A DNA stretch of 64,000 nucleotides, taken from positions 558,001 to 622,000 of the forward strand of contig NZ_RBCI01000003.1 in the NCBI RefSeq assembly GCF_003628535.1, given 5' to 3'. The notes under the pieces are model-generated. The model did no database searches and had not been told where the DNA came from. It saw nothing but the letters and a program-made list of their open reading frames with translations. Source of the DNA: Flavisolibacter nicotianae (GTDB lineage: Bacteria > Bacteroidota > Bacteroidia > Chitinophagales > Chitinophagaceae). Made by a program: the position numbers and the translations under genes. Below, piece by piece: positions 5,901 through 51,939 of this stretch (positions are counted from its first letter, which is position 1; the number at the start of each line of letters is the position of its first letter).

Positions 5901-6449
5901 GAATTTATCGTGGAGCAAAAGAATGACCTGGTGAATGCCAAGCAAAGCCTGATGCAAACCATTGCCGAAGTGGAGACAACCGCCAACCAGAAGTTTCTCG
6001 ACACCTTTAACCAGGTGCGGGAAAACTTCATCAAAGTGTTCAAGGCGCTGTTCACCGAAGACGACCAGTGCGACCTGATTTTGGAAAATCCCGACAACCT
6101 TGCGGAAACCGGCATCGACATCATGGCGAAGCCCAAGGGGAAACGTCCAAGCAGCATCGGGCAATTGAGCGGGGGAGAACGTACACTGACGGCAACGGCA
6201 CTATTATTTGCCATTTACCTGATCAAGCCGGCGCCATTTTGTATCCTCGACGAGGTAGATGCGCCACTGGACGATGCCAACGTGGGCAAGTTTACCAAAA
6301 TGATCCGGGAGTTCAGCAACAACTCGCAGTTCATTATCGTCACGCACAACAAGACAACGATGAGCGCCGTGGACGTGATCTATGGTGTAACGATGCAGGA
6401 GCCTGGCGTGAGCCGGCTGGTGCCGGTGGATTTTAGAAGCCTGAACTAG
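2931..6449 (+). CDS. smc: chromosome segregation protein SMC
   Basis: This is a full-length SMC ATPase of 1172 residues, the dimeric core of the bacterial condensin that compacts and segregates chromosomes. Walker A GPNGCGKS is at 31-38, followed by a long coiled coil, a globular hinge at about 500-660 (AAVENVLEPYLNYYV, GGSVGLFEGKKIG), a second coiled coil, the ABC signature LSGGE at 1079-1083 and Walker B CILDEVDAP at 1104-1112. The start codon is GTG at 2931, fixed by the conserved MRLKSLEIKGFKSF opening. No scpA or scpB lies nearby. The gene ends before a strong bidirectional terminator. Confidence 0.97.
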   Translation: MRLKSLEIKGFKSFADKTQVNFDENITGIVGPNGCGKSNIVDSIRWVIGEQKISHLRSENLESLVFNGSKTRSASGLAEVSLTFENTKNLLPTEFSTITITRKFYKNGESEYRLNDVQCRLKDIQNLFMDTGVSTDSYAIIELGMVDDLIKDKDNSRRRMLEQAAGISIYKTRKKEARQKLDATEQDLARIEDLLFEINNQLKTLENQAKKAQKYYEIKKEYREISIELAKAALEGFNLTYKDLNEKHETETDKRIALEAEIATSEAGIEQERVGFIEKERELHSLQQSFNELVQTLRTKENEKNLATQRLQYLREREENLSQFLSRAEGQMTGIEESIAFTQKQIGEEEEVLKGLNKQLEELRTQVDARRAVVDEKRSVVNQLRSSYQQVQRSQFDAEKKVAVADTSIQNLQRTIWHMEEDKANREDQIAQLQKDKGAKEEQLSAKQTDLEQLQTHHNNTKEQILKTQGVLETLRANLAQENRKLDAKKNEHDLLKSLVDKMEGYPESVKFLHNNKGWNHTAPILSDIIYVKEEYRAAVENVLEPYLNYYVVNNLQEGLQAVHLLDNAKKGKANFFLLDKVAGAASDAHQPEGTTAAMDVIEVDEQYRPLAEQLLHNVFIADDESVLENSNGAVILEKHGKYVKGSYTLSGGSVGLFEGKKIGRAKNLEKLRDQIAAQQAVVAELNAEIQARHNEVIAYNADLKEGVIRQTEREIQQLNNELYGLQNKLENLQHSQATSQNRIEELNEQLENTNLSIQNVRNELTELNASLSEYAEGLQKAEEDYRSIEVEYSTLNTQYNNLNLQVTREQSKIASLKQELQFKSNQLNDLRTQVETNTSQLKLTAEDIVQSDEALKELEEGLYGLMRRREAEESALNEADQFYYNLRNQLSTKESALRQKVKEKESIEHLLTEIKDKLTDVKLQLAGMKERLNVEFRIVLEDILDEPRTTNTPVEELQEKSDKMKKRLENLGEVNPTAIEAFEEMRKRYEFIVEQKNDLVNAKQSLMQTIAEVETTANQKFLDTFNQVRENFIKVFKALFTEDDQCDLILENPDNLAETGIDIMAKPKGKRPSSIGQLSGGERTLTATALLFAIYLIKPAPFCILDEVDAPLDDANVGKFTKMIREFSNNSQFIIVTHNKTTMSAVDVIYGVTMQEPGVSRLVPVDFRSLN

Positions 6450-6579
6450 CGAGTGGCGAGTCTCCATTAAAGTCATAGAATTCTTACAATACAAAAAACC
6501 TCCTGAGCTACAGGAGGTTTTTTATTGAAGGAAAAGATTTTACCGAGAGGCTACTTGCCACTCGCCATGCACTACTCGC
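6447..6579. repeat. inverted 7-bp word arms flanking the smc/galM terminator
   Basis: Directly after the smc stop the plus strand reads GCGAGTG, GCGAGTC in 7-bp phase (6449-6462). Directly after the galM stop the minus strand reads GCGAGTA, GTGCATG, GCGAGTG, GCAAGTA in the same phase (6552-6579). GCGAGTGGCGAG at 6449-6460 is an 11 of 12 inverted match to 6554-6565. The terminator at 6493-6523 sits between the two arms. Confidence 0.65.
6493..6523. terminator. bidirectional Rho-independent terminator
   Basis: A perfect stem with strand AACCTCCTG, loop AGCTA and strand CAGGAGGTT is flanked by an A-tract and a T-tract. It therefore works for the convergent smc (plus) and galM (minus) genes. Confidence 0.9.
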
Positions 6580-10068: not shown

Positions 10069-10095
10069 AAAGCCCCGGTCACCCGGGGCTTTTTC
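10069..10095. terminator. bidirectional terminator between DUF3276 gene and pgi
   Basis: Perfect stem AAAGCCCCGG / CCGGGGCTTT with a 4-base loop followed by T residues. The A-rich 5' side makes it usable from the minus-strand pgi gene as well. Confidence 0.9.
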
Positions 10096-10113
10096 ATTTG
10101 GGGGAAACGCAGG

Positions 10114-11796
<1,683 letters not shown>

Positions 11797-11848
11797 TTAC
11801 TTCTTTGAAAAGCGAAAAAGGGTAGAAGTTTTTGCGCTTTCGGGTTGA

Positions 11849-12865
11849 TCAAATCGCATCGATCGTCTGGATGGTTTTTTCGATCATCTCGGGGGTAACA
11901 TCCAGGTGGGTGACAATTCTCACCTGGGTAGGAGAGATGGCATACCAAAGAATATTTTCTTCTTTCATCCTGGCCACCAGCGACGGTGAAGTGAAACGGC
12001 CTTTGACGGAAAAAATAATGATGTTGGTTTCAACCGGCAGTACGGTTTCGACAAAATCTTTTTTGGCCAGCGCTTCCGCCAATTGTTTTGCTTGCAGGTG
12101 ATCCTGCTTCAGGCGGTCAACGTTGTTTTGCAAAGCATAGATCCCGGCCGCTGCCAGGTAACCGGCCTGCCGCATGCCGCCGCCAAACACTTTGCGTACA
12201 CGTCTTGCTTTGCGAATAAAATCGGCGGAGCCGAGTACAAGGCTTCCCACGGGACAGCCAAGGCTTTTGCTCAGGCAAACGGAAATCGTGTGAAAAACCT
12301 CTCCATAGGCTTTGGGATCTTCCTTCCGGGCGACGATCGCGTTGAAAAGCCGTGCGCCGTCAAGGTGAAGCGCCAGGCCGTGTTCATCGCAAACCTTCCG
12401 GATGCGGCGGATCTCGTCGAATTCGTAACAGCTGCCACCACCACGATTAGAGGTATTTTCCAGGGAAACAAGACTTGTACGGGCTTTGTGCACATCATCG
12501 GCGTTGATGGACTCGGCCACCTGTTCTGCCGTAATGCGACCGCGGTTGCCGGAAACCAGTTTGACCTGTGCGCCGGAATTTAGCGCAATCCCACCGCCTT
12601 CGTATTGATAGATATGAGAACTGCCGTCACAAATAACCTCGTCGCCGGATTGTGTGTGGCACTTGATGGCAATCTGGTTGGTCATTGTGCCGGAGGGGCA
12701 AAAAAGAGCCGCCTCCATGCCAAACAGGCTGGCCGCCATTTTTTCGAGCTGATTGATAGAAGGGTCTTCACCAAAGACATCATCGCCGACGGGTGCCGCA
12801 AACATGGCGTCCTTCATTCCGGCTGTTGGTTTTGTCACTGTATCTGAGCGGTAGTCAATAATCAT
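11849..12865 (-). CDS. ltaE: low-specificity L-threonine aldolase
   Basis: This PLP-dependent enzyme (fold type I) cleaves L-threonine or L-allo-threonine to glycine and acetaldehyde. At 338 residues it has the standard opening [21 protein letters not shown], the PLP-stacking region [10 protein letters not shown], and the Schiff-base lysine in [14 protein letters not shown]. The ATG at 12863-12865 is the only sensible start. A perfect -7 element (12870-12877) lies so close that the mRNA would have almost no leader; see the findings. It probably forms a two-gene unit with pgi. Confidence 0.93.
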
Positions 12866-12869
12866 CGGC

Positions 12870-12877
12870 CAAATTTA
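12870..12877 (-). promoter_or_regulatory. -7 element immediately before ltaE
   Basis: On the minus strand TAAATTTG matches TAnnTTTG exactly and ends only four bases before the ltaE ATG. No -33 TTTG is seen at 19-21 bases. Confidence 0.4.
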
Positions 12878-13430
12878 AACAGTTCGCGTCGTTCCTTTCC
12901 TTCCGTTTCATTCAGATAACCGATTCCCTTAGTTTTTCGCACCATCGACCTCTATACCGCTGGAAAAAAATTGCGGTTAGGCCAGCCTGTGCGACGAACA
13001 GATATGCCGAAATCGTGTCCGGATGTCCAGCGTAAGTTGAAAATGCCCGTCAAAAAAACGGCTTGTCCCATTTTCCGGCCTTTCCATCCCATTTCAGAAC
13101 AGCCGCACAGGCGGTTCCGGTAGTTTCGAAATCACAAGAAAGGAATCGATGTCCTCAGCTACCTATCCCAATGCCTCATTCGTCTTCGAATTCGAAACCT
13201 GGAATGCCCGGACTTTGTTTTTGAAACAATTGCCAGCAGAAACGCCGGCTGCCCTTTGCGGGGGAAAGGCCGTTTGCCGTTCGGCCGGCGGATTTTTCCG
13301 TTTGTCAATCCTTTTGCCGGAACTGTAACGCACCATGCAACCCTGCGTCCTATACCTGTCGAACGTTTACCGGTCATCATGAAAATGCAACGTTCATAAG
13401 AAAACAATGTACTTTACATTGCATAGTACC

Positions 13431-13438
13431 TAAGTTTG
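13431..13438 (+). promoter_or_regulatory. -7 element for the first receptor gene
   Basis: TAAGTTTG matches TAnnTTTG exactly and lies about 41 bases before the ATG at 13480. No matching -33 box is evident. Confidence 0.45.
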
Positions 13439-13479
13439 ACATGAAACTAACCTAAACAAGTACTTAAAAAGACAATAGA

Positions 13480-15957: not shown

Positions 15958-15981
15958 ACTTTTCACCCTCCGTGATAACCG

Positions 15982-16003
15982 AAGGGGCTGCAAGGCCCCT
16001 TTG
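15982..16003 (+). terminator. hairpin after first receptor gene
   Basis: Stem AAGGGGC / GCCCCTT with a 6-base loop, then a short T-rich stretch. Probably a modest terminator separating the two receptor genes. Confidence 0.6.
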
Positions 16004-16147
16004 TTCATTTCACGGAAAAACAAAGGCGGAACGGCTGCTTTAACAGGTGGTTTCTTTCATCACTGAATAAGCGCAATTCATCACATTTCGCATGCAGGCC
16101 CCGCATCTTTTAAAAACATTTGCAGTGTACACTTCAAACCAACCAAT

Positions 16148-18604
16148 ATGAGAAAGCGACTACCATTCTTCTTTTTTTGTTTTCTTGCCTGGACTGGTGC
16201 CTTTGCGCAGGCCACCGGAAAACTGTCCGGAACCGTAAATGATGAAAGCGGAAAAGCGCTGGCGTCTGCAACCGTGTCACTTCTCCGTTTGAAAGATTCC
16301 GGCCTGGTAAAACTGGCCATCACCGACAAGAGTGGCCGCTTTGATTTTATCAACCTCAAAGACGGCAAATACCTCCTTTCGTTTACGTCGGTTGGTTTTG
16401 AAAAAAAATATTCTTCGCCGCTAACGGTTGCCGGTGGCGAGGCCGAACTGCCGCCGGTTGTCCTGTTGCCATCTTCCAAGGATTTGAACAACGTAACGGT
16501 ATCGGCAAAAAGGCCGTTCATTGAATCCAGGATTGATCGAACGGTGGTTAACGTGGAAGCGTCGCCGAGCAGCGCCGGTGCAACCGCCCTGGAAGTGCTG
16601 GAAAAGTCCCCCGGTGTCACGGTCAATTCCGACGGCGTGGTGAGCCTTCGCGGCAAGGCGGGAGTCGTGATGATGGTCGATGGCAAACCAACCTATCTCT
16701 CTGCAACCGACCTGGCCAACCTGTTGAAGAACATGCCAGCATCGGCACTCGACCAGATCGAGATCATGACCAATCCTTCCTCGAAGTACGACGCATCGGG
16801 TAACGCCGGTGTCATCAATATCAAAACAAAAAAAGGCCGTGCCCCGGGTTGGAACGGAAGCATTACTCTGGGCGCCGGTACGTCGGTCTACCGCCTTGGC
16901 AATACGACCTACCTGATGCCCAAATCGCAAAACAGCTTCAACTTCAATTATAAAAAAGGCAAGTACAATTTTTTTGGCAACTACAACCCCAATTATTTCC
17001 GCGGTCGAAACACCATGACATTCGACCGGAACTTTACCGAGAATGGCGTCATCAGCGGGTCGTCGGTGCAGGAAACAAAGTTCAAGTTTGGCAATAACAA
17101 CCACACGTTGAAACTCGGCGTGGATTATACGGCCGACAAGAAAAATACGTTCGGCGTCGTGGTCAGCGGATTTGTTTTTGACGGTCATCCCACACCCATC
17201 TCAACACAGACCCTCAAAGATGCGGCTGGCAAAACCACTTCCGTTATCGTTTCCAAAACCGACAACGATATCAGCTTCAATAATTTTACCGGTAACCTTA
17301 ACTGGCGCCACACGTTCGACAGTACAGCGAAAGAGCTGACCGCGGATTTCGACTATGTGAAATATGCCAACACATCGGACATGCTGCTGGCCAGTGAGTT
17401 CTTCAACGGCAGCAACCAGCGCACCGGCGATTTGTTGCTGAAGGGGCACCTGCCGTCGAACATCGACATCTATTCGTTCAAATCCGACCTGACCATTCCG
17501 TTCAAAGGCGGCAGGATGGAAGCCGGCGTCAAGTCGAGTTATGTTAGCAACGACAATGAAGTGGACTACCGCCGCCAGTTGATCGATAAATCCTGGATTG
17601 CCGATAACCGCTCGAATCATTTTATCTACGACGAAAACATCAACGCGGCTTATCTCAATGCCAATAAGCAATTGGGCAAATGGTCGGTGCAGGGCGGTTT
17701 GCGGTTGGAAAACACCATTGCCAAAGGAAAACAGGTCACGAACGATTCTACCTTCAGGCGGAATTTCACCAACCTGTTTCCAAGTGCTTTTGTGAGTTAC
17801 GGGATCAACAAAAACAACCAGCTTACCCTGTCATACAGCCGTCGCATCACCCGCCCCAATTACCAGGACCTGAACCCGTTTACCTTCTTCCTCGATTCGC
17901 TGACATACAGGGTGGGAAATCCCTACCTGCTGCCACAGTTTACCAACAACGTGGAATTGAGCTATGCATATAAAAGCCGGTTCATCGTGACGGCCAACTA
18001 TAACGGCACAAACGACGTGATCTCGCAGATCCTGCGGCAGAACAACGAGAAGAAAATCACCTATCTCACTGCCGAAAACGTGGCGAAGTTTCGCAACATG
18101 GGCTTGTCCATTACGGCACCCATTACGGTTGCAAAATGGTGGAATGCCAACCTGTTTACCAATGTGTACAGCAACCGTTACCAGGGAATCTACAACGACA
18201 AGCCGTTTGATATTTCGTTTACATCCTTTTCTGCCAACCTTTCCAATACGTTCCAGTTGGGCAAGGGGCTGACCGGAGAGATCAGCGGTTTTTATCGCTA
18301 CAAGACGGTTGACCAGCTGGCTGTCATAGAGCCGTTGTACCAAATGAGCCTGGCCGCTTCCAAACAGATATTGCAGGGGAAGGGTACGGTGCGCCTGAAT
18401 ATCCGCGATCCGTTTGCCTGGATGCGGTTCAGCGGGGAAAACAAATACGGCGATATAGACATGCGTTTCCAGAACCGGCCCGACACAAGGCAGGTAGCGG
18501 CCACCTTTACCTATCGATTCGGTAAGGCAAGCCCGCAGTCGCAGCCCCGCCGCCGCAATTCTTCCTCGCAGGAAGAACAAAGCAGGGTAGGACAGGGCAA
18601 TTAA
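16148..18604 (+). CDS. outer-membrane beta-barrel receptor with carboxypeptidase-regulatory N-domain (second of pair)
   Basis: An 818-residue paralogue of the upstream receptor, in the same orientation 190 bp away. The signal peptide is 1-20 (TGAFAQA); the regulatory domain is at about 22-105 (GTVNDESGKALASATVSLL, NLKDGKYLLSFTSVGF). The plug carries TALEVLEKSPGVTVNSDG and MTNPSSKYDASGNAGVINIKTKKG, nearly the same words as its neighbour. The barrel ends in VAATFTYRFGKAS, followed by a basic, serine/glutamine-rich tail. Both members share the late NPYLLPQFTNNVELSY-type strand. A tandem duplication is the simple explanation. A terminator lies on each side, so the two can be expressed separately. 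Confidence 0.88.
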   Translation: MRKRLPFFFFCFLAWTGAFAQATGKLSGTVNDESGKALASATVSLLRLKDSGLVKLAITDKSGRFDFINLKDGKYLLSFTSVGFEKKYSSPLTVAGGEAELPPVVLLPSSKDLNNVTVSAKRPFIESRIDRTVVNVEASPSSAGATALEVLEKSPGVTVNSDGVVSLRGKAGVVMMVDGKPTYLSATDLANLLKNMPASALDQIEIMTNPSSKYDASGNAGVINIKTKKGRAPGWNGSITLGAGTSVYRLGNTTYLMPKSQNSFNFNYKKGKYNFFGNYNPNYFRGRNTMTFDRNFTENGVISGSSVQETKFKFGNNNHTLKLGVDYTADKKNTFGVVVSGFVFDGHPTPISTQTLKDAAGKTTSVIVSKTDNDISFNNFTGNLNWRHTFDSTAKELTADFDYVKYANTSDMLLASEFFNGSNQRTGDLLLKGHLPSNIDIYSFKSDLTIPFKGGRMEAGVKSSYVSNDNEVDYRRQLIDKSWIADNRSNHFIYDENINAAYLNANKQLGKWSVQGGLRLENTIAKGKQVTNDSTFRRNFTNLFPSAFVSYGINKNNQLTLSYSRRITRPNYQDLNPFTFFLDSLTYRVGNPYLLPQFTNNVELSYAYKSRFIVTANYNGTNDVISQILRQNNEKKITYLTAENVAKFRNMGLSITAPITVAKWWNANLFTNVYSNRYQGIYNDKPFDISFTSFSANLSNTFQLGKGLTGEISGFYRYKTVDQLAVIEPLYQMSLAASKQILQGKGTVRLNIRDPFAWMRFSGENKYGDIDMRFQNRPDTRQVAATFTYRFGKASPQSQPRRRNSSSQEEQSRVGQGN

Positions 18605-18635
18605 AAAGAGTACTTTTTATTTTTCTCATGTGCAA

Positions 18636-18665
18636 AACCGGCTCCTTTTTCCAAAGGAGCCTTTT
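18636..18665 (+). terminator. terminator after second receptor gene
   Basis: Perfect 9-bp stem GGCTCCTTT / AAAGGAGCC with a 4-base loop and a following T-tract. Confidence 0.85.
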
Positions 18666-18751
18666 GATTTTCGAATACCAAACAAGGGATGATGAATGCC
18701 GAAGGGTTTTAGGGCATCTTTCCCTCTCTTCTCAGGAAGCTTGCTTTGTTG

Positions 18752-18819
18752 GGAAGAGAGATGAACAGAGGATTTCACTTCAATATTCTTTCCTCCTTGT
18801 TCATCTGTTCTTCTGTTCA
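18752..18819. repeat. octamer word arms upstream of yajQ
   Basis: Plus-strand words GGAAGAGA, GATGAACA, GAGGATTT run at 18752-18775 in 8-bp phase. Minus-strand words TGAACAGA, AGAACAGA, TGAACAAG, GAGGAAAG occupy 18788-18819 in the same phase. GATGAACA at 18760 is an exact inverted match to the right arm. Confidence 0.6.
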
Positions 18820-18855
18820 TTTTCCTATCTTCAACGCCCAAAACCACAACCCCTT

Positions 18856-19347
18856 ATGCCTTCTTTCGATATTGTTTCCAAAGTAGACGCACAGGCACTC
18901 GACAATGCTGTGAACGTTACCAAGAAAGAGATTACCAATCGCTTCGATTTTAAGAATGCCCATATTGTCATTGATTTGAACAAAAAGGATTTCAAGCTCA
19001 ACGTCGAAACCGACGACGACATGAAAATGCGGCAGCTGATCGATGTGCTCATCAACCGGGCGCACAAGCAGGGGATTGCCCCCGAGGCATTCGATACGTC
19101 GAAGGATGGCTACCAAAGCGGCAAAGTGTGGAAAAAAGAAGTGCAGGTACGCAACGGCCTGAAGCAGGAGGATGCCAAAAAGATCGTCAAGCAAATCAAA
19201 GACAGCGGGCTGAAGGTGCAGGCCGCGATCATGGACGACCTGGTTCGGGTGACAGGGAAAAAAATTGACGACCTTCAGACCGTTATCCAGGCCGCTAAAG
19301 GCTGGGACTTGGGTATTCCGCTCCAGTTTGAGAACATGCGAAGCTAA
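18856..19347 (+). CDS. yajQ: YajQ family nucleotide-binding protein
   Basis: This 163-residue cytoplasmic protein has two ferredoxin-like halves, typical of YajQ/UPF0234. The start is the ATG at 18856 because MPSFDIVSKVD is the conserved opening; an open frame upstream to 18628 crosses a terminator and repeat words and is not coding. Key stretches are ALDNAVNVTKKEITNRFDFKN, IDVLINRAHKQGI, KIVKQIKDSGLKVQAAIMDDLVRVTGKKIDDLQ and LGIPLQFENMRS at the end. Family members bind nucleic acid, GTP/ATP or, in some pathogens, cyclic di-GMP. Which of these applies here is unknown. Confidence 0.95.
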   Translation: MPSFDIVSKVDAQALDNAVNVTKKEITNRFDFKNAHIVIDLNKKDFKLNVETDDDMKMRQLIDVLINRAHKQGIAPEAFDTSKDGYQSGKVWKKEVQVRNGLKQEDAKKIVKQIKDSGLKVQAAIMDDLVRVTGKKIDDLQTVIQAAKGWDLGIPLQFENMRS

Positions 19348-19391
19348 TTTGGTTCAGGGGTTTGGGGACCACAAACCGGGTTCCCCGCTTC

Positions 19392-19415
19392 GTGAACGTG
19401 TGAACAAGTGAACTC
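19392..19415 (+). repeat. three tandem 8-bp words
   Basis: GTGAAC recurs exactly every 8 bases at 19392, 19400 and 19408, each followed by a variable dinucleotide. The array lies between yajQ and the L31 promoter. Confidence 0.8.
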
Positions 19416-19463
19416 GAAAACGATCTCTTTCAACATCTGCTTAACAAAAAAAGTTTTCCGGGT

Positions 19464-19496
19464 GTGTAATTTTTTAGAAGGGTTTACTTACTTTTG
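19464..19496 (+). promoter_or_regulatory. promoter for rpmE2
   Basis: TACTTTTG at 19489-19496 is a perfect -7 element. TGTG at 19464-19467, 21 bases before it, is a weak -33 candidate. The leader to the L31 start at 19542 is about 42 bases. Confidence 0.55.
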
Positions 19497-19541
19497 CGCC
19501 TTCAATTCAAGCAATCACACGATATTTATAAAATCATTTTT

Positions 19542-19790
19542 ATGAAAAAGGGTCTTCATCCGGCAAATTACCGTTATGTGGTTTTCAAAGACATGAGTAA
19601 CGGGCACAGCTTTTTAAGCCGTTCTACCGCAGCAAGTAAAGAAACCGTAAAATGGGAAGATGGAAACGAATATCCCCTGATCAAATTGGAGATTTCCAAT
19701 ACGTCTCACCCTTTCTTCACCGGTAAAAACATGTTGGTAGATACTGCCGGCCGTATCGACAAGTTCAAGAAAAAATACGCAAAGAAATAA
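19542..19790 (+). CDS. rpmE2: 50S ribosomal protein L31, type B
   Basis: The 82-residue protein begins at the ATG at 19542 ([15 protein letters not shown]); an upstream in-frame ATG would fall inside the promoter. The sequence [30 protein letters not shown] and the basic end FKKKYAKK are those of the type B, zinc-independent form, since the CxxC pairs of type A L31 are absent. It is a component of the large ribosomal subunit at the intersubunit bridge. The gene is a single unit with its own promoter and terminator. Confidence 0.95.
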
Positions 19791-19814
19791 CTGTTGCAGT
19801 TTTCATAACAGACT

Positions 19815-19843
19815 ATCCCGCCTTTCCAGGCGGGATTTTTTTG
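19815..19843 (+). terminator. terminator after rpmE2
   Basis: Perfect stem ATCCCGCCT / AGGCGGGAT, loop TTCC, then seven T residues. Confidence 0.92.
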
Positions 19844-19964
19844 TTGGCTGGATGGCAGGCTTCCGGGTGAGCGCAGTTGCCGTTTCGATAGGTAAATTCT
19901 TTTACCTTCGGAGAATTGAGACAAATCAACGGTAATAGATCACCAAAGACAAGCATCCAGTCAT

Positions 19965-21143
19965 ATGTATAAGATTGTTTTTACCGAAGAGTTTTGCAAC
20001 CCGGGTAACCTTTTCCCATTCACCCTGACCCGCCAGGTTCAGGACATTCGTGTCGGCATTTTAACCATCCGGGAAAAATGGGAAACGGCCCTCCAGGCCC
20101 CTTCCTTCGATAAGTTTGAAGAAGACTACAAAGACCTGGAAAGGGCGGTGAAGATCAGCGAAGTGATTGGTGGTGACCGGGTTTACCTCATTCACGGGAA
20201 TGTGCTCCCCACCAAAAAAATCGTCAAGCAGGTAAAAAAGTTGAAACCCGGTGAGTTCCTGGCGGTGCCCGACCGCGAAAGTTTTGTTTACTGCATTTCC
20301 CAAAAAGAAGTGCTGGATGAAAACAACATCAAGATGGGAAAGCCGGTAGAGATTGAAAGCGAATTGAAGGAGATCAGTTTGCCCTGGCATATTTTTCAGC
20401 TGAACGCCTGGGCCATCGAGCAGGATTTTGCCCTGCTGACAGAGGGACGGAAATCGCAGAAAATCTCGGAAACAAACAATGTCAACAACCCATCCAATGT
20501 CTTTATTGAAAAAGGGGCGGTCGTGGAATGTTGTTACCTGAACGCCCAGGAAGGACCGATCTATATCGGGAAAGATGCCGTGGTCATGGAAGGTGCCCTG
20601 CTTCGCGGTCCACTGGCAATCTGCGAAGGCGCCGTGGTGAAGATGGGAGCAAAAATCTATGGCGGTACCACCATCGGGCCCAAATGCACGGCAGGGGGAG
20701 AAATTAAAAACTCGGTGATGTTTGGAAATTCCAACAAATCGCACGATGGCTATATGGGTGATGCCGTGATTGGCGAGTGGTGCAACTGGGGCGCCGGCAC
20801 CTCCAATTCCAACATAAAAAACAATGCGTCCGGTGTGGTTGTGTGGACGCCAGGCGGCGCCATCAACGTGGGGCTGAAATGCGGTGTGCTGATGGGCGAC
20901 TATTCCCGCACGGCGATCAATACTTCCATTAATACGGGTACCGTGATTGGCACCTGTGTGAATGTGTATGGCAATGGCCTTACACCCAAATATATTCCTC
21001 CATTTGCCTGGGGCAGCGACGGCTTGCAGCGGTATGAATTTGAGAAAGCCCTTGCGGATATCAATAACTGGAAACTCCTGAAGGGGAGCGCACTGACTTC
21101 AGCAGAAAAAACGATCCTGAAACATATCTTTGACCACTATTAA
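19965..21143 (+). CDS. putative sugar nucleotidyltransferase with left-handed beta-helix (GlmU-like)
   Basis: This 392-residue cytoplasmic protein belongs to the Bacteroidota GlmU-like family. The N-terminal half (about 1-180) corresponds to a nucleotidyltransferase-like domain, but the usual GGxGTRM nucleotide-binding loop is not present. The opening reads VFTEEFCNPGNLFPFTLTRQVQDIRVGILTIREKW instead. Residues about 185-340 form hexapeptide-type repeats (PIYIGKDAVVMEGALLRGP, AKIYGGTTIGPKCTAGGEI, GEWCNWGAGTSNSNIKNN), the left-handed helix of acyl- or nucleotidyl-transferases. It probably acts in activated-sugar metabolism, but the substrate is not known. It is followed by tpiA after 94 bp. Confidence 0.8.
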   Translation: MYKIVFTEEFCNPGNLFPFTLTRQVQDIRVGILTIREKWETALQAPSFDKFEEDYKDLERAVKISEVIGGDRVYLIHGNVLPTKKIVKQVKKLKPGEFLAVPDRESFVYCISQKEVLDENNIKMGKPVEIESELKEISLPWHIFQLNAWAIEQDFALLTEGRKSQKISETNNVNNPSNVFIEKGAVVECCYLNAQEGPIYIGKDAVVMEGALLRGPLAICEGAVVKMGAKIYGGTTIGPKCTAGGEIKNSVMFGNSNKSHDGYMGDAVIGEWCNWGAGTSNSNIKNNASGVVVWTPGGAINVGLKCGVLMGDYSRTAINTSINTGTVIGTCVNVYGNGLTPKYIPPFAWGSDGLQRYEFEKALADINNWKLLKGSALTSAEKTILKHIFDHY

Positions 21144-21237: not shown

Positions 21238-21999
21238 ATGCGGAAACAAATTGCAGCAGCGAACTGGAAGATGAATCTCACGCTGGAAGGAGCGCAAGGT
21301 TTATTGGATGATATTTTAAAAGAAGCCGTGCAACCCGGCGCCAACCAGCAGGTCATTTTTGCGGTGCCTTTTCCCTACCTGATGATGGCAAAAGAACGGG
21401 TAACACAGCAAGGCTACGCTGTAGCTGCGCAAAACTGCAGCAACAAGAAAAGCGGGGCTTATACCGGCGAAGTATCCGTAGAAATGCTTCGCTCCATTGG
21501 GATCGACCATTGCATAATCGGCCATAGCGAACGACGCGAATATTACGGGGAGATCGACGAAATCCTGCAGCAAAAGCTGGCTCTTTGCCTCGATCATGGC
21601 GTGACGCCGATTTTTTGTTGCGGCGAGGCGCTGGATGTCCGGGAAAAGGGAAAACAAAACGACTTCGTCCGGGAACAACTGGAAAAGGCGCTGTTCGAAT
21701 TTTCCGGTTCGGAAATGAAGAAGATCGTCATTGCCTACGAACCCATTTGGGCCATTGGGACCGGTAAAACAGCAACAGCGGAACAGGCGCAACAAATGCA
21801 TGCGTTTATCCGTTCTGTATTGGCGGAGAAGTGGGGCCTGGATGTCGCGAATGACGTTTCCATTTTGTACGGCGGCAGCGTGAAAGGTGCCAATGCAAAT
21901 GAACTTTTTGGTTCACCCGATGTCGATGGCGGCCTGGTCGGCGGCGCTTCTCTCAATGCGTCAGAGTTTATCCAGATCATCAAAGCATTAAAGCATTAA
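21238..21999 (+). CDS. tpiA: triose-phosphate isomerase
   Basis: This glycolytic enzyme interconverts dihydroxyacetone phosphate and glyceraldehyde 3-phosphate. At 253 residues it is of standard length. The opening AAANWKMN carries the active-site asparagine and lysine. The catalytic histidine lies in CIIGHSERREYYGE, and the catalytic glutamate in AYEPIWAIGTGKTA, which also starts loop 6. The phosphate-binding YGGSVKGAN and GGLVGGASL are present near the end. The small membrane gene starting 43 bases downstream may share its transcript. Confidence 0.98.
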   Translation: MRKQIAAANWKMNLTLEGAQGLLDDILKEAVQPGANQQVIFAVPFPYLMMAKERVTQQGYAVAAQNCSNKKSGAYTGEVSVEMLRSIGIDHCIIGHSERREYYGEIDEILQQKLALCLDHGVTPIFCCGEALDVREKGKQNDFVREQLEKALFEFSGSEMKKIVIAYEPIWAIGTGKTATAEQAQQMHAFIRSVLAEKWGLDVANDVSILYGGSVKGANANELFGSPDVDGGLVGGASLNASEFIQIIKALKH

Positions 22000-22042
22000 A
22001 CCATCAACCCAATACAAGATCGTTGTTGTTCAAAAAAACCAT

Positions 22043-26985: not shown

Positions 26986-27041
26986 GCGGTCAGCCGTGGA
27001 TCGTCAGCAACCAGGAAAAAGCTGACTGCTGATAGCCAAAA
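26986..27041 (+). repeat. heptamer word array between rpmI and rplT
   Basis: Eight consecutive 7-base words fill this spacer: GCGGTCA, GCCGTGG, then ATCGTCA, GCAACCA, then GGAAAAA, GCTGACT, then GCTGATA, GCCAAAA. Most start with GC. GTCAGC at the left and GCTGAC at the right are inverted copies. The array lies inside the rpmI-rplT transcript. Confidence 0.7.
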
Positions 27042-32106: not shown

Positions 32107-32168
32107 GTTTAAAGTTTAAGGTTTACAGTGGCTAATCTACTTTGAACCTTAAACTTTACACGTTTAAA
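32107..32168. repeat. inverted heptamer word arms between bacilliredoxin and lgt
   Basis: Left arm words GTTTAAA, GTTTAAG, GTTTACA start at 32107, 32114 and 32121 in 7-bp phase. The right arm carries AGTTTAA, GGTTCAA on the minus strand. A perfect 14-bp inverted repeat pairs 32110-32123 with 32145-32158 around a 21-base loop. It lacks a T-tract of terminator quality. Confidence 0.8.
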
Positions 32169-33712: not shown

Positions 33713-34570
33713 ATGAGGCAGCTTAAAATTGCTACCCAAATTACCAACCGGGATTCGCAAGCCGTAGAAAAGTACCTTCAGGAGATCTCCAAGATCCCGA
33801 TGATCACCCCTGAAGAGGAAACGACTCTGGCGCAGCGCATCAAAATGGGTGACCAGCGTGCATTGGACAAACTGGTTCAGGCCAACCTGCGTTTCGTGGT
33901 ATCGGTAGCCAAACAATATCAACACCAGGGTTTGTCACTGAGCGATCTGATCAATGAAGGAAACCTTGGTTTGATTAAAGCCGCCCAGCGTTTTGATGAA
34001 ACCAAAGGTTTTAAGTTCATTTCTTACGCTGTGTGGTGGATTCGTCAATCGATCTTACAGGCATTGGCCGAGCAGGGCCGCCTGGTTCGTTTGCCCCAAA
34101 ACAAAATCGGTACCTATAACAAAGCCAACAAAGCCTACATGGCGTTTGAGCAGGAACACGAGCGGGAGCCTTCTACCGAAGAGCTTGCAGATATCCTGGA
34201 AATGAGTGAGACCGAGATCAACAATATTTTCCAAAGCAATACCCGCCATACTTCCCTCGATGCACCAGTTCACGAAGCGGAAGATGTGGCCATGGGTGAT
34301 CTCCTGGAAGGCAGCGACGATACGGATGATGATGTGATGAAAGATTCATTGCGCAACGAGATCCGCCGCGTGCTGAAATCACTTTCCCCGCGTGAAGCCG
34401 AGATCGTGAACGCTTATTTTGGGCTGGATGGCGAGAATGGGACGACTATTGAGCAGATAGGCCAGAAATACGATCTGACAAAAGAACGTATTCGCCAGAT
34501 CAAGGAAAGAGCGATTAAACGCCTGCAAAAAGCTCGTTACAGCAGCGCCTTAAAAGCATATTTGGGATAA
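33713..34570 (+). CDS. rpoD: primary RNA polymerase sigma factor (RpoD/SigA), short Bacteroidota type
   Basis: This 285-residue sigma-70 protein lacks region 1.1 and the non-conserved insert of E. coli RpoD, as is usual in Bacteroidota. Region 1.2 is SQAVEKYLQEISKIPMITPEEE. Region 2 carries LVQANLRFVVSVAKQYQHQGLSLSDLINEGNLGLIKAAQRFDETKGFKFISYAVWWIRQSI. Region 3 is at about 130-200, and region 4.2 is TIEQIGQKYDLTKERIRQIKERAIKRLQ. It would recognise the TAnnTTTG promoters annotated here. An acidic patch (EGSDDTDDDVMKD) separates regions 3 and 4. Confidence 0.96.
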   Translation: MRQLKIATQITNRDSQAVEKYLQEISKIPMITPEEETTLAQRIKMGDQRALDKLVQANLRFVVSVAKQYQHQGLSLSDLINEGNLGLIKAAQRFDETKGFKFISYAVWWIRQSILQALAEQGRLVRLPQNKIGTYNKANKAYMAFEQEHEREPSTEELADILEMSETEINNIFQSNTRHTSLDAPVHEAEDVAMGDLLEGSDDTDDDVMKDSLRNEIRRVLKSLSPREAEIVNAYFGLDGENGTTIEQIGQKYDLTKERIRQIKERAIKRLQKARYSSALKAYLG

Positions 34571-34573
34571 ATT

Positions 34574-34644
34574 ACGTGAAGCGTCAAGCGACAGAAGTGA
34601 AACTTGTTTCTTTTCTATTCCGTTTCACTTCCCACGTCTCACGT
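34574..34644. repeat. inverted heptamer word arms after rpoD
   Basis: Plus-strand words ACGTGAA, GCGTCAA, then GCGACAG, AAGTGAA lie at 34574-34601 in 7-bp phase. The minus strand of 34617-34644 reads ACGTGAG, ACGTGGG, then AAGTGAA, ACGGAAT in the same phase. GAAGTGAAAC at 34594-34603 and GTTTCACTTC at 34622-34631 form a perfect 10-bp inverted repeat. Confidence 0.75.
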
Positions 34645-45933: not shown

Positions 45934-48900
45934 TTATTGATTGATGAATGTTGGCGGATTGACCAAAGGCGCACCTGTGCTGTCGGTGTTTCTTCGCGGA
46001 TTTCTACGGCCAAAAAGGAATTCGCTGAAGTTGTCAAATTCTTTGTTGTACGACAGGCTGGTTCCGTAGCGTCTTGTTTGCGGACTGCCGCTGGTGGTAA
46101 ACCCGTTAAGGAAGTCGACATTCTGCCGGTAAAAAAATGTTGCCCGCAGCGAACCTGTTTTGTTGAGCAAAATCTGCAGGCTCACATCCGGCAAAATCTG
46201 GAAGGTTTGCTGCACATTCGCCTCCAACGGAATATCAAAGCTGCCGCCAACTGAAAGAATGGCCCGCCCGTTGAACAGAGACGTACCCACGCTAATGTTG
46301 GAGGTGGCCTGGTTGAAAAGACGGATACCCCTGGCATTGGGGTCGAACAGGTTGCGGTTGTAAAGCGAACCGGAAAAGTTAAGCGTAAACCGGTTGCGAA
46401 GCACCCGTGACAGGATCTGGTTCAGTTCGCGATTGATTACATTGAACAAGACACCGGAAATGGTATTGTAAGCCAGTTCCTCAAACGGACGTTGTACCGA
46501 TTGCGTGCTTTCGTATGGCGCAAAAGAGTTCGTAACGATCAGGAAAGTGACTTGCTTCGTCAGTTCATTCCTGTTGCGTTCCAGTTGTTGAACGGCAAAA
46601 GAGATCTTTGGATTCGAATAAATACTGTTTGGAAACTCCAGGCGGAAATCAATATCAGGTGAAAAAAGTTTTCCCGTCAATGTTGCGGCCACAACCACGT
46701 TTTCACGAGTGCGGTTTAGAATATCCTGGTCCTGCTTGTCCACCACCAGGGTAGAAGCCAGCGGGGCAAAACTGACTTTTTCGGCAGTATAAAAGGCATC
46801 AAGATGAATGTTTGCATCGTAAGGGTCGCCGTTCCATTCGATGTAATTGTTGGCGCCTTTTCGTACAATAAATGGCCGTTTGAAAACGGATTGGAACGTA
46901 AACAGGTAGTTTCCTTCTTCGATGTTGTAGCGGCCGGAAAGGCGCAGCGGTGCGATGGTGCCGGCTGTGATCTTCAAGGTGCCGTTCCCTCTTCCTTTGA
47001 TGATATCGCCGGTCAGTTCATCAAGGACGACTTCTACGTTAACCAAAGGTGTCGCGGTCATATTCACCTCGTACGTGATGTTGCTTTCGCCGCCGCGCTT
47101 CTCAATCTCCGTCATCTCACGGCCGTATTTTTTCTCCACCATGAAAGTGGTTTGGCCGGTCACTCTTGTTTGTGCCGGCGGCAGCGTAATGTACGAACTG
47201 TCCGTTGTGGAGGCCTTCACATCGATGTACATGTTCATGTCGTACTGCGGTCCGATCAGCACAAAAGAGCCGGCCCCTTTTGCCCGTCCGTAAAACTGTT
47301 GATTATCCCTGTACGTGGTGTTGATCAGTTCCATTTGCCGTGATACGGTTTGCACGGCAAGGTCAAAATACATATTCTTAAATCCATGATGCGTGATGCC
47401 GCCCTTGATCTGCGCAAGGTTGCCTTCACGGTCGTGCAGCTTGAGATTGGAAAGATCGAGGTAGTCTTTTTTTAGTTCAATGTCTGTGTCTTCCAGCGTA
47501 TAAGGCACCTGGGTAAAGACCACTTTGAAGCCGGCGTTTTTGAGTCGCACTTTTGCCAGGAAGTCACGGTTGTCGCCCTCGCCTACGATATCCACCTTGC
47601 CCGTCATGGTGCCCTGGATATTGGTGAAAAGTGTACCAATGAAACGCTCCAGGATTTTCAGTTGAAAGTTGTCTGGCCGCAGCGTAATCCTGTCCTGGAA
47701 GGTGTTGGCGCTGTCTTTAAAATCCATCGCCATGTCGAAATCAATCTTGTGTTCGGGATCGACATTGTTGCCGCGGGCCGTCAGCATACCGTCAACGTTA
47801 TTGTACCTGCCATTGATCAGCACATCGCCGATGGAGTCGTTGTCCAGTCTTATTTGCCCGCCTCTGACATTCGCATCGATCACCAATTTTTCCGTTGGAT
47901 TTTCGGCAACGATGCTTCCCGACAGCGTTCCTTCCAGCCGCATGTCCTTTATAAAAAGGGGTGAAAGGTCGGCCAGGTTGAGGTCCCGCATGGTCACATG
48001 AATGTCGTTCCAGCTACCGATATCGGAGGCCACCGTTTCTATACGCACTTCCTGCGGTCCTTCACGCAAAAGCACCTGGCCATTGGCAACGGCACTTTTG
48101 CGGAGGTTTAGCTCTCCGCCTTGTTCGATGTTCCAGGTTTTTCCGTTGAGCACAAACGAAGATGGAAAAAACAGCACGGAGATTCCATCGTTGAAAGTTT
48201 TGACCTGCGCGGCCAGTGAAGCCCTGTTGATGGCCTGGTTGGCCGTGGTATTGAGCACGATATTCGAAACGTCGTTACTGGCCCGTATGCTGAATGTGGT
48301 TTGCGGCAGTTTAATCGCACGACTCAGTGTCGCATCGCTGGCACTGCCGTTCAGTACAAGGCTGTCGAGGTTTCCGGCACCGGTCAGTTTGATGGCTGTG
48401 AATGAATATTGCTTGTAGCCAAACGCCGGCACATCGGCATCAATGGTCATCGTGTTGGCCGTCGTGTTCAGTGAGCCAATGAGGCGGCTGTTGTTCAAGC
48501 CGGAAAGATTTGAATCGAGCAGGCGTACATAATCTTCCACCAGGCCGGTTGTAATGTCGAATGTAAAGTTCTGCGGGATAAAATGCGTAGGCTTGGGAAT
48601 GTAGGCAGGGTAGTAGCGGCTCAAGAAAAGCTTAAAGGCAGAAGGCAGGGTGCTGATGTCGAAGTCACCGGTAATCCGTCCGTCGAATTCGTTGGAACTC
48701 ACATTGAGGCTTCTCTCGTTGTTGATATAATAAGAGGCCACGTTCAGAAAGTCGAAGGAAAGCGGCTGCCCGTTGGCCACCAGTTCGGCGTTGCTGATGC
48801 GGGCCGTGCCAATGAGGTTGGACAAACTGTTGCCCTGCAAGTTCAATGTAAAATCTCCTTTCAGCTTGATGTCTTCTTTGGTCAGTTGAAGGGCTTTCAG

Positions 48901-50727
48901 GTCAGCCTTGCGGATTTGTGCCGTCGCATCAAAAACGGGAATACGCTTGCTGAAGTCGATCAGGCCATTCAAGTGCAGGTCGGCGTTGGGGTCGTTGATG
49001 GTAAAATCGCCATTCAGTTGCTGCTTTTTAATTGTTCCCTTGCCTTTGATATTTTGGTAAGTATACCCGCCATACCGGATGCGGTGCACGATGCCGTCGA
49101 TATCCAGGCTGATCTTGTTCCAGTCGAAACTGCGGCCTTTCACGTTACCGTGAAAATCCACAATTCCCAAATCCTTGTTGTTGATCAGGGTACCCAGTTG
49201 AAAACCGTCGGTAGAGACCGAACCGGAATAAACCGCTTCGCCGCCCTTCGGTAGTTTCATGTTGATATCGGTGGTGAGTGTGCCAAGCGCTGTTTGGATG
49301 GTGCCGTACGAGACAAAGTCGTTGACGAAACCCGTGAACGTTCCTTTAAAACGCAGGTAGCGAAGCGCCCTGGCATTGGGATTTTTCAGCCGGCCCAGCT
49401 CGGGGAAAAAGCTGACGGCATCGTCGTATGTTGTGCTGAGTTCTTTAGCCTCAACGTTTAATAATGTCTTGTTGATGTCGGGCAGGCCTACCACACTCAC
49501 ATTGCCGTTGATCACCGTGTTTTTTCCCAGCCGGACCAGGAGGTCATCGGCATTCAACCGGTCAACGGCACCGTTTACTTTTCCTTCGATGCGGATGTCT
49601 TTGTTCCAGTTGCGGGCACTGGGAATGAAATAAGCCAGATCGTCCGATGAAATGGTGGCGTCGGCAAAATCCGCATCCATGGTTACACTGTGCAAAAAAT
49701 CGCTGAATCCTTTGGGACCTTCTGCCCGCAGGGAAAACGACCGGTGCAACCGGCTTTTGGGTGTTTCCAGAAGCAGGTCGGCAAAGGTGTATGCTTTCGG
49801 CTGGAGAGTGACAAAGGATTGAAGATTCTTGACTACAAACCCGCTGCGTTCGGCAGTAGAAAGCTTTACGCTTGCCTGAACCGTGTCTCCCCTGAACCAT
49901 AAATTATCTGCGGTACCGTTAATGCGGCTAAAGTCCAGGTGGTTCCCATCGAAATACGTCACGGTAGGCGTATAATTGTCTTTGTCGAGACGGAAACGTC
50001 CATTTTTCATGCTGGCATGGGTAACCCGGATTGTCCAGGTATTGGGGGAGGAGCTTGTGTTTTTGAATTTGCCTTTGTACGACAGCGATGAAAAATACGG
50101 GTCGGTCAGCTCCACGTTCCGCAGCAACACATTCTGGCGGCTGACGCTGATGTCCTGGGCATCCAGGTCGAGTGCGCCGACTTTTACTGTGAGATCGTTG
50201 CCGGCCCAGGCATCCCGCTTGTAAAAAGCCACGTTATCCAGTTCCACCCGCTGCAGGTTGAATTGAATCCCGGCGTTCTTTTTCACTTTCACCGTGTCGG
50301 TTGAAGCAAAGTACTTGGCGAGAAAGCCATAGTTCCAAACCGAGTCTGTCCGGTTAAAATGTATGGTGGCGTTTTCCAGCCCGATGTATTTCAGGTCGGC
50401 TTTGTCCTTGAAAAAAAACCAGTCCGTGATGCGGACCTTTACAGCACCGGCATAGAGCAGTGTATCTTGTTTCTGATCTTCCACATAAACACCTTCCAGT
50501 TCCATACGATTAAAAAAGCCGATGCTGACATGTTTAATGGCAATTTTGGTGCGGAGGTCTTTGGAGAGTTTGCTGGTTACCTGCCCGGCAAGCCAGTTCT
50601 GGCCCCAATCTGTTTGCACAAATGCCCAGATTACGATGAGCAGCAAAACGATGGAGAGAAGGACGCGGCCAAGTATTTTGAAAAATCTCCTCAATGGCAA
50701 ATTTGTGTAAATGTAGGTATATGCCAT
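45934..50727 (-). CDS. tamB: translocation and assembly module protein TamB
   Basis: This 1597-residue AsmA-like protein spans the periplasm and supports outer-membrane protein insertion and lipid transport between membranes. The start is the ATG at 50725-50727 (MAYTYIYTNLPLRRFFKILGRVLLSIVLLLIVIW), which gives one N-terminal anchor at about 17-35; the frame upstream to 51012 crosses the repeat words. The long middle is repeated beta-strand material (NVKGRSFDWNKISLDIDG, GTARISNAELVANGQP). The last 350 residues form the TamB C-terminal domain, with NITYEVNMTATPLVNVEVVLDELTGDIIKGRGNGTLKI and a closing barrel-like segment. A TamA partner is not in the window. Confidence 0.92.
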   Translation of the reverse strand: MAYTYIYTNLPLRRFFKILGRVLLSIVLLLIVIWAFVQTDWGQNWLAGQVTSKLSKDLRTKIAIKHVSIGFFNRMELEGVYVEDQKQDTLLYAGAVKVRITDWFFFKDKADLKYIGLENATIHFNRTDSVWNYGFLAKYFASTDTVKVKKNAGIQFNLQRVELDNVAFYKRDAWAGNDLTVKVGALDLDAQDISVSRQNVLLRNVELTDPYFSSLSYKGKFKNTSSSPNTWTIRVTHASMKNGRFRLDKDNYTPTVTYFDGNHLDFSRINGTADNLWFRGDTVQASVKLSTAERSGFVVKNLQSFVTLQPKAYTFADLLLETPKSRLHRSFSLRAEGPKGFSDFLHSVTMDADFADATISSDDLAYFIPSARNWNKDIRIEGKVNGAVDRLNADDLLVRLGKNTVINGNVSVVGLPDINKTLLNVEAKELSTTYDDAVSFFPELGRLKNPNARALRYLRFKGTFTGFVNDFVSYGTIQTALGTLTTDINMKLPKGGEAVYSGSVSTDGFQLGTLINNKDLGIVDFHGNVKGRSFDWNKISLDIDGIVHRIRYGGYTYQNIKGKGTIKKQQLNGDFTINDPNADLHLNGLIDFSKRIPVFDATAQIRKADLKALQLTKEDIKLKGDFTLNLQGNSLSNLIGTARISNAELVANGQPLSFDFLNVASYYINNERSLNVSSNEFDGRITGDFDISTLPSAFKLFLSRYYPAYIPKPTHFIPQNFTFDITTGLVEDYVRLLDSNLSGLNNSRLIGSLNTTANTMTIDADVPAFGYKQYSFTAIKLTGAGNLDSLVLNGSASDATLSRAIKLPQTTFSIRASNDVSNIVLNTTANQAINRASLAAQVKTFNDGISVLFFPSSFVLNGKTWNIEQGGELNLRKSAVANGQVLLREGPQEVRIETVASDIGSWNDIHVTMRDLNLADLSPLFIKDMRLEGTLSGSIVAENPTEKLVIDANVRGGQIRLDNDSIGDVLINGRYNNVDGMLTARGNNVDPEHKIDFDMAMDFKDSANTFQDRITLRPDNFQLKILERFIGTLFTNIQGTMTGKVDIVGEGDNRDFLAKVRLKNAGFKVVFTQVPYTLEDTDIELKKDYLDLSNLKLHDREGNLAQIKGGITHHGFKNMYFDLAVQTVSRQMELINTTYRDNQQFYGRAKGAGSFVLIGPQYDMNMYIDVKASTTDSSYITLPPAQTRVTGQTTFMVEKKYGREMTEIEKRGGESNITYEVNMTATPLVNVEVVLDELTGDIIKGRGNGTLKITAGTIAPLRLSGRYNIEEGNYLFTFQSVFKRPFIVRKGANNYIEWNGDPYDANIHLDAFYTAEKVSFAPLASTLVVDKQDQDILNRTRENVVVAATLTGKLFSPDIDFRLEFPNSIYSNPKISFAVQQLERNRNELTKQVTFLIVTNSFAPYESTQSVQRPFEELAYNTISGVLFNVINRELNQILSRVLRNRFTLNFSGSLYNRNLFDPNARGIRLFNQATSNISVGTSLFNGRAILSVGGSFDIPLEANVQQTFQILPDVSLQILLNKTGSLRATFFYRQNVDFLNGFTTSGSPQTRRYGTSLSYNKEFDNFSEFLFGRRNPRRNTDSTGAPLVNPPTFINQ

Positions 50728-50768
50728 TTTCAGACAAATTAAGGGCCGCGGGGTTTGTTCAAAGAATT

Positions 50769-50928
50769 GTGAAAGGTGAAAGGCTGAGGGCAAGCGGCAA
50801 TCGGCCATCAGCTGTTGGCAGGTGACGATTGGTAACGCTACAAACATTTCTATTTTTATTCCGTTCATCCTCTTCCTTCCCATTGGCAGGTTTCTATTAC
50901 TGATGGCTGATCGCTGTTGGCCGATCGC
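50769..50928. repeat. large inverted heptamer word element between tamB and the isoaspartyl peptidase gene
   Basis: Left arm, plus strand, 50769-50831: nine words in strict 7-bp phase, including GTGAAAG twice, GCAATCG, GCCATCA and GCTGTTG. Right arm, minus strand of 50887-50928: GCGATCG, GCCAACA, then GCGATCA, GCCATCA, GTAATAG, again in phase. GCCATCA is present on both arms, and 50795-50811 matches 50900-50916 in inverted form at 14 of 17 positions. Confidence 0.85.
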
Positions 50929-50982
50929 AGCTTGCTTCGTGGCATATTTGCTGCATACCTTTTCCTCACGATCAACTGAGAC

Positions 50983-51939
50983 ATGAAACAGAAAATAGCC
51001 CTTGCGATACACGGGGGAGCGGGCACCATCCTCAAAAGCAAGATGACCGCTGCTCTCGAAAAAGCGTATAAGGAAGCCCTCCGGCTTTCACTTCAAAAAG
51101 GTTACGATGTTTTGACGGCCGGTGGCACCTCCCTCGATGCCGTGGAGACTGCGGTGCGTGAACTGGAAGATTGTCCCCTGTACAATGCGGGCAAAGGGGC
51201 CGTGTTTACAGCCGATGGCCGAAACGAAATGGATGCATCGATTATGTCGGGAAAAGACCTGGCCGCAGGAGCGATTGCCGGTGTGACCTGCCTTAAAAAC
51301 CCGGTTACGGCTGCAAGGGCGGTCATGGAAAAAAGCGATCACGTGATGCTGATCGGGAGTGGGGCGGAAGCATTTGCGCGGCTGCACGGAATAGAGATGG
51401 TCGCACCTGATTATTACTTCACCCGGGAACGCTGGGAGGCACTGCTCAAAATCCGCGAAGAAGACCCGGACCGTACCGACCTGGATCATGGAAGCAGTAA
51501 ATCCTATCGGAAGAAAAAGAAGGAAGAAAAGTTCGGCACCGTCGGCGCTGTGGCCCTGGACCGCGAAGGCAACCTGGCGGCTGCAACCAGCACCGGCGGC
51601 ATGACCAACAAGAAATGGGGCCGCGTTGGCGACTCGCCGGTTATTGGCGCCGGCACCTATGCCAACCGGTTGTGTGCGGTAAGTTGCACCGGCTGGGGAG
51701 AATACTTTTTACGGTTGTGTGTTGCAAAGACTGTGGCTGACCTGATGGAGTACAAGGGATACTCGCTTTTGCGTGCAGCCAATGAAGCCATTTTAAAAAA
51801 GCTTCCGGAGATTGGTGGCGATGGTGGCCTGGTGGCCGTTGATGCACAGGGGGCTGTTGCACTACCGTTCAATACAGAGGGCATGTACCGTGGCTATGTA
51901 AAAAACAACGGGAAGATTGTCGTGGATATTTATGCCTGA
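50983..51939 (+). CDS. iaaA: isoaspartyl peptidase / plant-type L-asparaginase
   Basis: This N-terminal-nucleophile hydrolase, 318 residues, hydrolyses beta-aspartyl dipeptides and asparagine. The opening LAIHGGAGTI is typical. The precursor cleaves itself before the nucleophile threonine in KFGTVGAVALDREGNLAAATSTGG (T186), giving alpha and beta chains. GDSPVIGAGTYANRLCAVSCTGWGE and the late GDGGLVAVDAQG are substrate-binding stretches. An insert of lysine-rich residues (SKSYRKKKKEE) precedes the cleavage point. No signal peptide is visible, so it is cytoplasmic. Confidence 0.95.
   Translation: MKQKIALAIHGGAGTILKSKMTAALEKAYKEALRLSLQKGYDVLTAGGTSLDAVETAVRELEDCPLYNAGKGAVFTADGRNEMDASIMSGKDLAAGAIAGVTCLKNPVTAARAVMEKSDHVMLIGSGAEAFARLHGIEMVAPDYYFTRERWEALLKIREEDPDRTDLDHGSSKSYRKKKKEEKFGTVGAVALDREGNLAAATSTGGMTNKKWGRVGDSPVIGAGTYANRLCAVSCTGWGEYFLRLCVAKTVADLMEYKGYSLLRAANEAILKKLPEIGGDGGLVAVDAQGAVALPFNTEGMYRGYVKNNGKIVVDIYA

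Follow-up and report, generated by a model that had tools for sequence, protein, structure and literature searches.

The intergenic DNA of Flavisolibacter nicotianae was found to contain arrays of short degenerate words repeated at a strict pitch of 7 or 8 bp, in large excess over shuffled gaps, and such arrays form a major, apparently unannotated part of the intergenic DNA in this and related genomes. The window, a stretch of 64,000 nucleotides, is part of contig 13 of an assembly of 6.09 Mb in 70 contigs (genome G000), of which 1.26 Mb were covered by the scan. For the contig-scale scan, a 700-kb stretch of the same contig was put together piecewise; after gene calling with a home-made codon-score script (one 18-kb "gap" being an island with missed genes), the gaps, 139 kb of non-coding DNA, were scanned. 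At lag 7, 34 segments reached a score of at least 14 against 0.2 expected, and 82 reached at least 10 against 5.7; at lag 8 the corresponding counts were 14 against 0.5 and 39 against 4.4. Lags 4, 5, 10, 11 and 13 gave no excess in this DNA, and over lags 4–30 nothing was prominent beyond 7, 8, their harmonics (14, 16, 21 and 24) and multiples of 3, which reflect missed coding sequence. By extrapolation there are about 745 arrays per genome, and roughly one fifth of gaps of 60–600 bp hold one. The proposal of an earlier note on the window, that gaps between genes here harbour a repeat family strictly phased at 7 or 8 bp, was thereby borne out.

Each site within the window was tested on its own: its highest local score at the lag in question was compared with 1000 dinucleotide shuffles of the gap that contains it. 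Five of the eight sites listed in the earlier note clearly exceeded their shuffled gaps: 50769–50928, 34574–34644 and 32107–32168 (P 0.001 each), 19392–19415 (P 0.005) and 18752–18819 (P 0.006), the last with its periodic portion limited to 18798–18832. Two were borderline at lag 7 and were lost once any lag of 4–13 was allowed (26986–27041, P 0.096; 6447–6579, P 0.196), and periodicity at 251–293 was at chance level (P 0.25, gap shuffles). The arrays are as follows.

50764..50826, plus strand: left arm of the main site, 7-bp words GTGAAAG GTGAAAG GCTGAGG GCAAGCG GCAATCG GCCATCA GCTGTTG GC; score 21.0, P 0.001 against gap shuffles
50896..50941, minus strand: right arm of the main site, 7 bp, inverted relative to the left arm, words ATTACTG ATGGCTG ATCGCTG TTGGCCG ATCGCAG; score 14.5 at lag 7
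34574..34603, plus strand: 7-bp left arm, ACGTGAA family, directly after the stop of the sigma-70 factor gene 33713–34570 (identified by Pfam)
34622..34644, minus strand: 7-bp right arm, inverted (GTTTCAC TTCCCAC GTCTCAC GT), within segment 34575–34644
32107..32131, plus strand: 7-bp left arm, GTTTACA family (GTTTAAA GTTTAAG GTTTACA GTGG); P 0.001
32137..32168, minus strand: 7-bp right arm, inverted partner of 32107..32131
19392..19421, plus strand: 8-bp array GTGAACGT GTGAACAA GTGAACTC, single arm; P 0.005
18798..18832, minus strand: 8-bp array TGTTCATC TGTTCTTC TGTTCATT; P 0.006, hairpin z −2.95
26986..27041, no strand assigned: borderline site (P 0.012 at lag 7) with weak 7-bp words, GCGGTCA... 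and in inverted orientation GCTGACT...
6447..6579, no strand assigned: short 7-bp arms (GCGAGTG...CACTCGC), borderline; P 0.019 at lag 7
21973..22011, plus strand: 8-bp array CATTAAAG CATTAAAC CATCAACC, absent from the list of the earlier note; lag-8 score 20.5

The gap of the main site is divergent and lies between a large minus-strand gene (45934–50727) and an Asparaginase_2 gene (50983–51939). Segment 34575–34644 scored 15.75 (P 0.001, gap shuffles) with a hairpin z of −2.9, and site 32107–32168 gave a hairpin z of −4.5 with mirrored word order, as in few sites. The words at 19392..19421 consist of the hexamer GTGAAC (GTTCAC on the opposite strand) and free 2-nt linkers, and the array at 18798..18832 has a partial inverted partner, GATGAACA, near 18760. 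The array at 21973–22011 had the top lag-8 score of the whole window; it spans a gene's stop codon, so arrays can provide the end of a reading frame. Among the top scorers of a window scan over lags 2–20, those well above shuffled sequence had lag 7 or 8, except for one of lag 17 and several whose lag was a multiple of 3. Bulk lag-7 autocorrelation over the gaps of the window, taken with a crude gene mask, was not raised; the signal is local.

The observation that the word differs by site was half right, as words return in about a dozen families common to sites and species. Word pairs from different gaps with a similarity of at least 0.7 numbered 192 for 8-bp words (7 with permuted columns) and 250 for 7-bp words (71 with permuted columns). 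The main 8-bp words, GTTCACNN, GATAATNN, GATATTNN and GAAAATNN, are each composed of a fixed hexamer and two free bases; in the families GATAAT, GATATT, GAAAAT and GTTCAC, letters 1–6 hardly vary, whereas letters 7 and 8 float. GTTCAC was paired at pitch 8 in 15 instances and at pitch 7 in none, and within arrays of GTTCACAA the mismatch was 0.03–0.08 in GTT versus 0.73 and 0.50 in the final two letters. A rotation test of core against linker, carried out per gap, gave P ≤ 0.0005 in 10 of 15 families, a pattern that alignment to the family could inflate, since the families were defined on the same data, as were thresholds and the word orientations chosen by eye. For four 8-bp families, linker positions chosen in G000 predicted those of other genomes (0.42–0.68 versus 0.11–0.18). 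The 7-bp families have fewer fixed letters, with cores of three to five bases, and two of them showed no significant core/linker pattern. Arrays without a detected partner arm displayed the pattern unchanged, so it is not caused by arm pairing. The pattern GTTCACNNGTTCACNNGTTCAC matched 17 times in this genome, the array at 19392..19421 among them, and three times in G003; no further genome among those sampled from the class contained it, and the reversed control had no match in this genome.

Arrays were densest in convergent gaps (15.1 per 10 kb), followed by codirectional (10.6) and divergent gaps (6.0). Their position usually right after a stop codon, as claimed before, was corroborated, with medians of 11.5 nt past the stop in codirectional gaps and 4 nt in convergent gaps. 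Opposite orientation of two arms holds as a tendency: among 57 pairs of neighbouring arrays with the same period in one gap, the word was inverted in 38 and direct in 5, and most array gaps hold a single array above threshold. At two-arm sites the G-richer word points inward from both sides. This polarity agreed at 116 versus 34 word-matched two-arm sites (null 75 ± 6), a comparison independent of the orientations picked by eye, which gave 49 to 5; in G009 it was indistinct, the left arm being G-richer at two of five sites. Two arrays of one word make up a strand-symmetric pair, which tends to be placed just behind a stop and keeps away from short promoter gaps. The order of words in one arm hardly mirrors that in the other (mean z 0.5), and a mirrored inverted duplication was rejected on this ground. 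Three further candidates were also rejected: a mobile element with a common loop, as loops have nothing in common beyond a tRNA and a handful of short matches; a stop-codon backup, in which words that are not multiples of 3 would place stops in all frames (286 stops on the outward strand versus 339 ± 22 with permuted columns); and seeding of the array by the stop codon, where periodic identity drops (0.37 in the stop versus 0.48–0.77 after it).

Between related species the location of an array is kept, and words, copy number and even pitch change. At the main site, the flanks are conserved in the two nearest relatives, G006 and G014, and the array is replaced, by a two-arm 7-bp array of another word family in G006 and a one-arm 8-bp array in G014; the tRNA-Gly gap holds two 8-bp arms in G006 and two 7-bp arms in G014, with similar cores. 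Orthologous gaps of these two genomes contained arrays in both in 13 cases, in one in 10 and in neither in 54, which indicates that location is kept. The two findings by which the earlier note's proposal was to be refuted, namely no excess over shuffled sequence or orthologous gaps free of any phase, were looked for; the excess was large, and orthologous gaps in two relatives keep an array of other words. Letters differed between species about twofold more often in linkers (0.30) than in cores (0.14), with pairs partly counted twice and alignments possibly one word out of register. Upstream of the Asparaginase_2 gene (L123, L124, L125), the changing array is flanked on either side by the conserved motifs TTCAAAGAATTGTGAAAG and TTTGCTGCATA, which are probably parts of a promoter.

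A like excess at lags 7 and 8 was present in the close relatives G006, G014, Cnuella, G015, G009 and G016. Loci of Sphingobacteriaceae gave a weaker excess (10 versus 1.3 at lag 7), and none was seen in a Flavobacteriaceae-type set or in G019. In G009 and G016 (L221–L228), 7-bp arrays prevail with other words (ATCTCTG, AATATTC, AAAATTC), so that the vocabulary is lineage-specific.

A search of open-access papers turned up no description of these arrays. The STRR of cyanobacteria and long simple sequence repeats are heptamer tandem arrays of uniform words in intergenic DNA and are not known to follow a polarity rule or a core/linker grammar; the arrays described here are likewise intergenic and heptameric, but the letters of their words change from copy to copy at set positions. 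The REP/BIME elements of enterobacteria are intergenic, lie at gene 3′ ends, form inverted pairs and are strand-symmetric, all of which applies here too; a REP, however, is a longer conserved palindrome, whereas here the array is stepped at 7 or 8 bp and a common loop or flank was not found. The earlier note had named STRR as the closest described thing and characterised them by uniform words; as a view of STRR-like elements this was too narrow, since the Xanthomonas heptamers are heterogeneous (GGGANTN) and convergently paired (PMC4692102). The closest described system is the GGGAATC/GGGANTN heptamers of Xanthomonas, with which nearly every feature is common; these have a 7-bp pitch and heterogeneous words with positions 1–4 and 6 conserved, are mostly intergenic at on average 28 nt past the upstream ORF, are rarer between divergent genes, often form convergent array pairs on opposite strands (70–75 cases per genome), and keep the same gene neighbours in two species while length and sequence vary (PMC4692102). 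A related heptamer of Nostoc is GGGGA(C/T)T (PMC4692102). The intergenic 7-bp excess, the convergent pairs, the proximity to the upstream 3′ end and the constancy of neighbours with a varying array all recur here. In contrast to the single G-quadruplex-forming word per Xanthomonas genome, about a dozen families occur here, most of them without GGG, so that G-quadruplex formation is not the common basis; the shared grammar argues against it as the common basis in Xanthomonas as well. A second pitch of 8 bp and another phylum are further differences. The finding therefore brings a known kind of element into Bacteroidota, where its words are many and its pitch may also be 8 bp. TAACTGA direct repeats, intergenic heptamers of Beggiatoaceae, some cyanobacteria and five Bacteroidetes, resemble them in unit length, intergenic location and occurrence in Bacteroidetes, but consist of one exact word placed mostly just upstream of start codons, with rarely repeated near-variants and essentially no inverted pairs (PMC4679880). 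No TAACTGA array was among the lag-7 arrays listed, and the arrays here prefer the position after stops.

We tentatively favour, at somewhat less than even confidence, arrays that grow by slippage, whose cores are kept by sequence-specific DNA recognition through a putative reader protein and which are paired inward. Fixed-pitch degenerate arrays would expand and contract by replication slippage, as near-perfect arrays, the similarity of neighbouring words and differences in copy number suggest. Selection would preserve the cores as recognition sites and leave the remaining one to three bases to drift freely; a core has some six bases, the first of them G, in 8-bp families and three to five bases in 7-bp families. 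The core/linker pattern itself is observed, and selection on cores is what we infer from it. The likeliest reader, a putative DNA-binding protein, would align head to tail along consecutive cores, and a site could outlive the replacement of its word or copy number provided that pitch and polarity persist. Since words or pitch are in some cases quite different at orthologous sites, one specific protein would be ill-suited, and a protein family or a looser reader would be needed. Candidate roles between transcription units may include a roadblock, an insulator or a nucleoid-anchoring site. In favour of recognition are the confinement of the excess to lags 7 and 8, with relatives showing it too, the vocabulary common to sites, the core/linker pattern, polarity, kept location, the greater divergence of linkers than of cores, depletion in divergent gaps, and stems without wobble bias. 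Against it, identity between 7-bp words declines from 0.66 one step apart to 0.60 at three and 0.50 at five steps, the gradient that plain slippage gives.

The main rival to DNA recognition, and only a little less probable, is slippage accompanied by drift alone. The arrays would then be functionless, neutral palindromic microsatellites: slippage would favour steps of 7–8 bp, perhaps a length held by the polymerase, template switching in small hairpins would yield the inverted partner, and arrays would survive where harmless, after stops and outside promoters. Besides the neighbour gradient, near-perfect arrays fit this account (GTTCACAA repeated about 30 times, TCGAACC 12 times), as do copy-number differences between orthologues and the depletion in divergent gaps. 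In many bacteria, moreover, heptamers outnumber all other long repeat units, and a polymerase footprint was suggested for heptamer repeats by Mrazek 2007 (both as cited in PMC4679880 and PMC4692102). Neutral growth, however, does not predict the same fixed word positions at independent sites, words common to sites and species or a single polarity, and the arms are barely mirrored although simple inverted duplication would mirror them. The word-by-word copying with a fixed step proposed in the earlier note fares similarly: local copying by slippage is supported by neighbour similarity and near-perfect arrays, but copying alone leaves fixed and floating letters, recurring words and the single polarity of arms unexplained. 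The long-standing question of why seven becomes testable as polymerase slippage versus a reader stepping along the DNA. About 30 nearly perfect consecutive units of GTTCACAA in G015 (contig 1, 5158785–5159027; L182) represent a recent expansion.

A wider form of the recognition reading, in which the arrays would be strand-symmetric boundary elements of core words read on DNA by a putative family of array-binding proteins, with a grammar common to distant phyla (a core beginning with G, a free linker, arms that point inward and placement behind the stop codon) and Xanthomonas GGGANTN as one case, appears possible but rather unlikely in its entirety.

Improbable, by comparison with these, are RNA hairpins acting as terminators or 3′-end stabilisers, in which tandem words would keep the stem pairable in any register. 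Inverted repeats scoring at least 14 are present in 46–53% of array gaps in all gene contexts, as opposed to only 3–6% of array-free codirectional or divergent gaps; with the placement directly after stop codons and good folding at some sites (such as 32107), this would suit a hairpin. Yet a T-run followed the 3′ arm in only 5 of 45 cases (control 7.5%), and stem mismatches in codirectional gaps comprised 65 GT and 65 AC, a lack of wobble bias that points to DNA rather than mRNA. The arms of the main site (50764–50826 and 50896–50941) folded no better than shuffles (DNA z −0.95), and cores are no different in arrays that lack a partner. The arms at 6447–6579, in a gap between convergent genes, enclose a separate, ordinary terminator hairpin with a T-run, in keeping with the earlier view that arrays and terminators are distinct. 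RNA hairpins are thus disfavoured by the lack of T-runs and wobble bias and by the barely mirrored word order, and no Rfam family matched above its gathering score within the window. For genome annotation this is a warning, in that inverted repeats after stops in these bacteria are often not terminators.

Templated addition, by which a telomerase-like or DRT10-like reverse transcriptase would extend broken ends into facing G-rich arrays, is highly implausible and, for resident RVT_1-type enzymes, largely refuted: polarity and non-mirrored order would fit broken ends that are extended and then joined, and DRT10 produces tandem-repeat DNA from an RNA template (PMC12632851), but no RVT_1 was detected at E ≤ 0.001 in the complete G000 genome or in the array-rich G009, G012 and G016, and what lies between arms may be native sequence, for example a terminator, and not just a junction.

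Two minor observations were made alongside. In locus L011, positions 6704–20000 (contig 13, approximately 166704–184746) contain ORFs rejected by the codon-score caller, several longer than 250 aa, and their atypical codon use suggests an imported island. In G012 (Cnuella), the gap on contig 1 orthologous to that between genes 429 and 430 of G000 contig 13 (L173–L179) holds a different repeat family of nested perfect palindromes, e.g. AAACCTTGAAGGTTT and ACACCTCACAGGTCTTTAAGACCTGTGAGGTGT.
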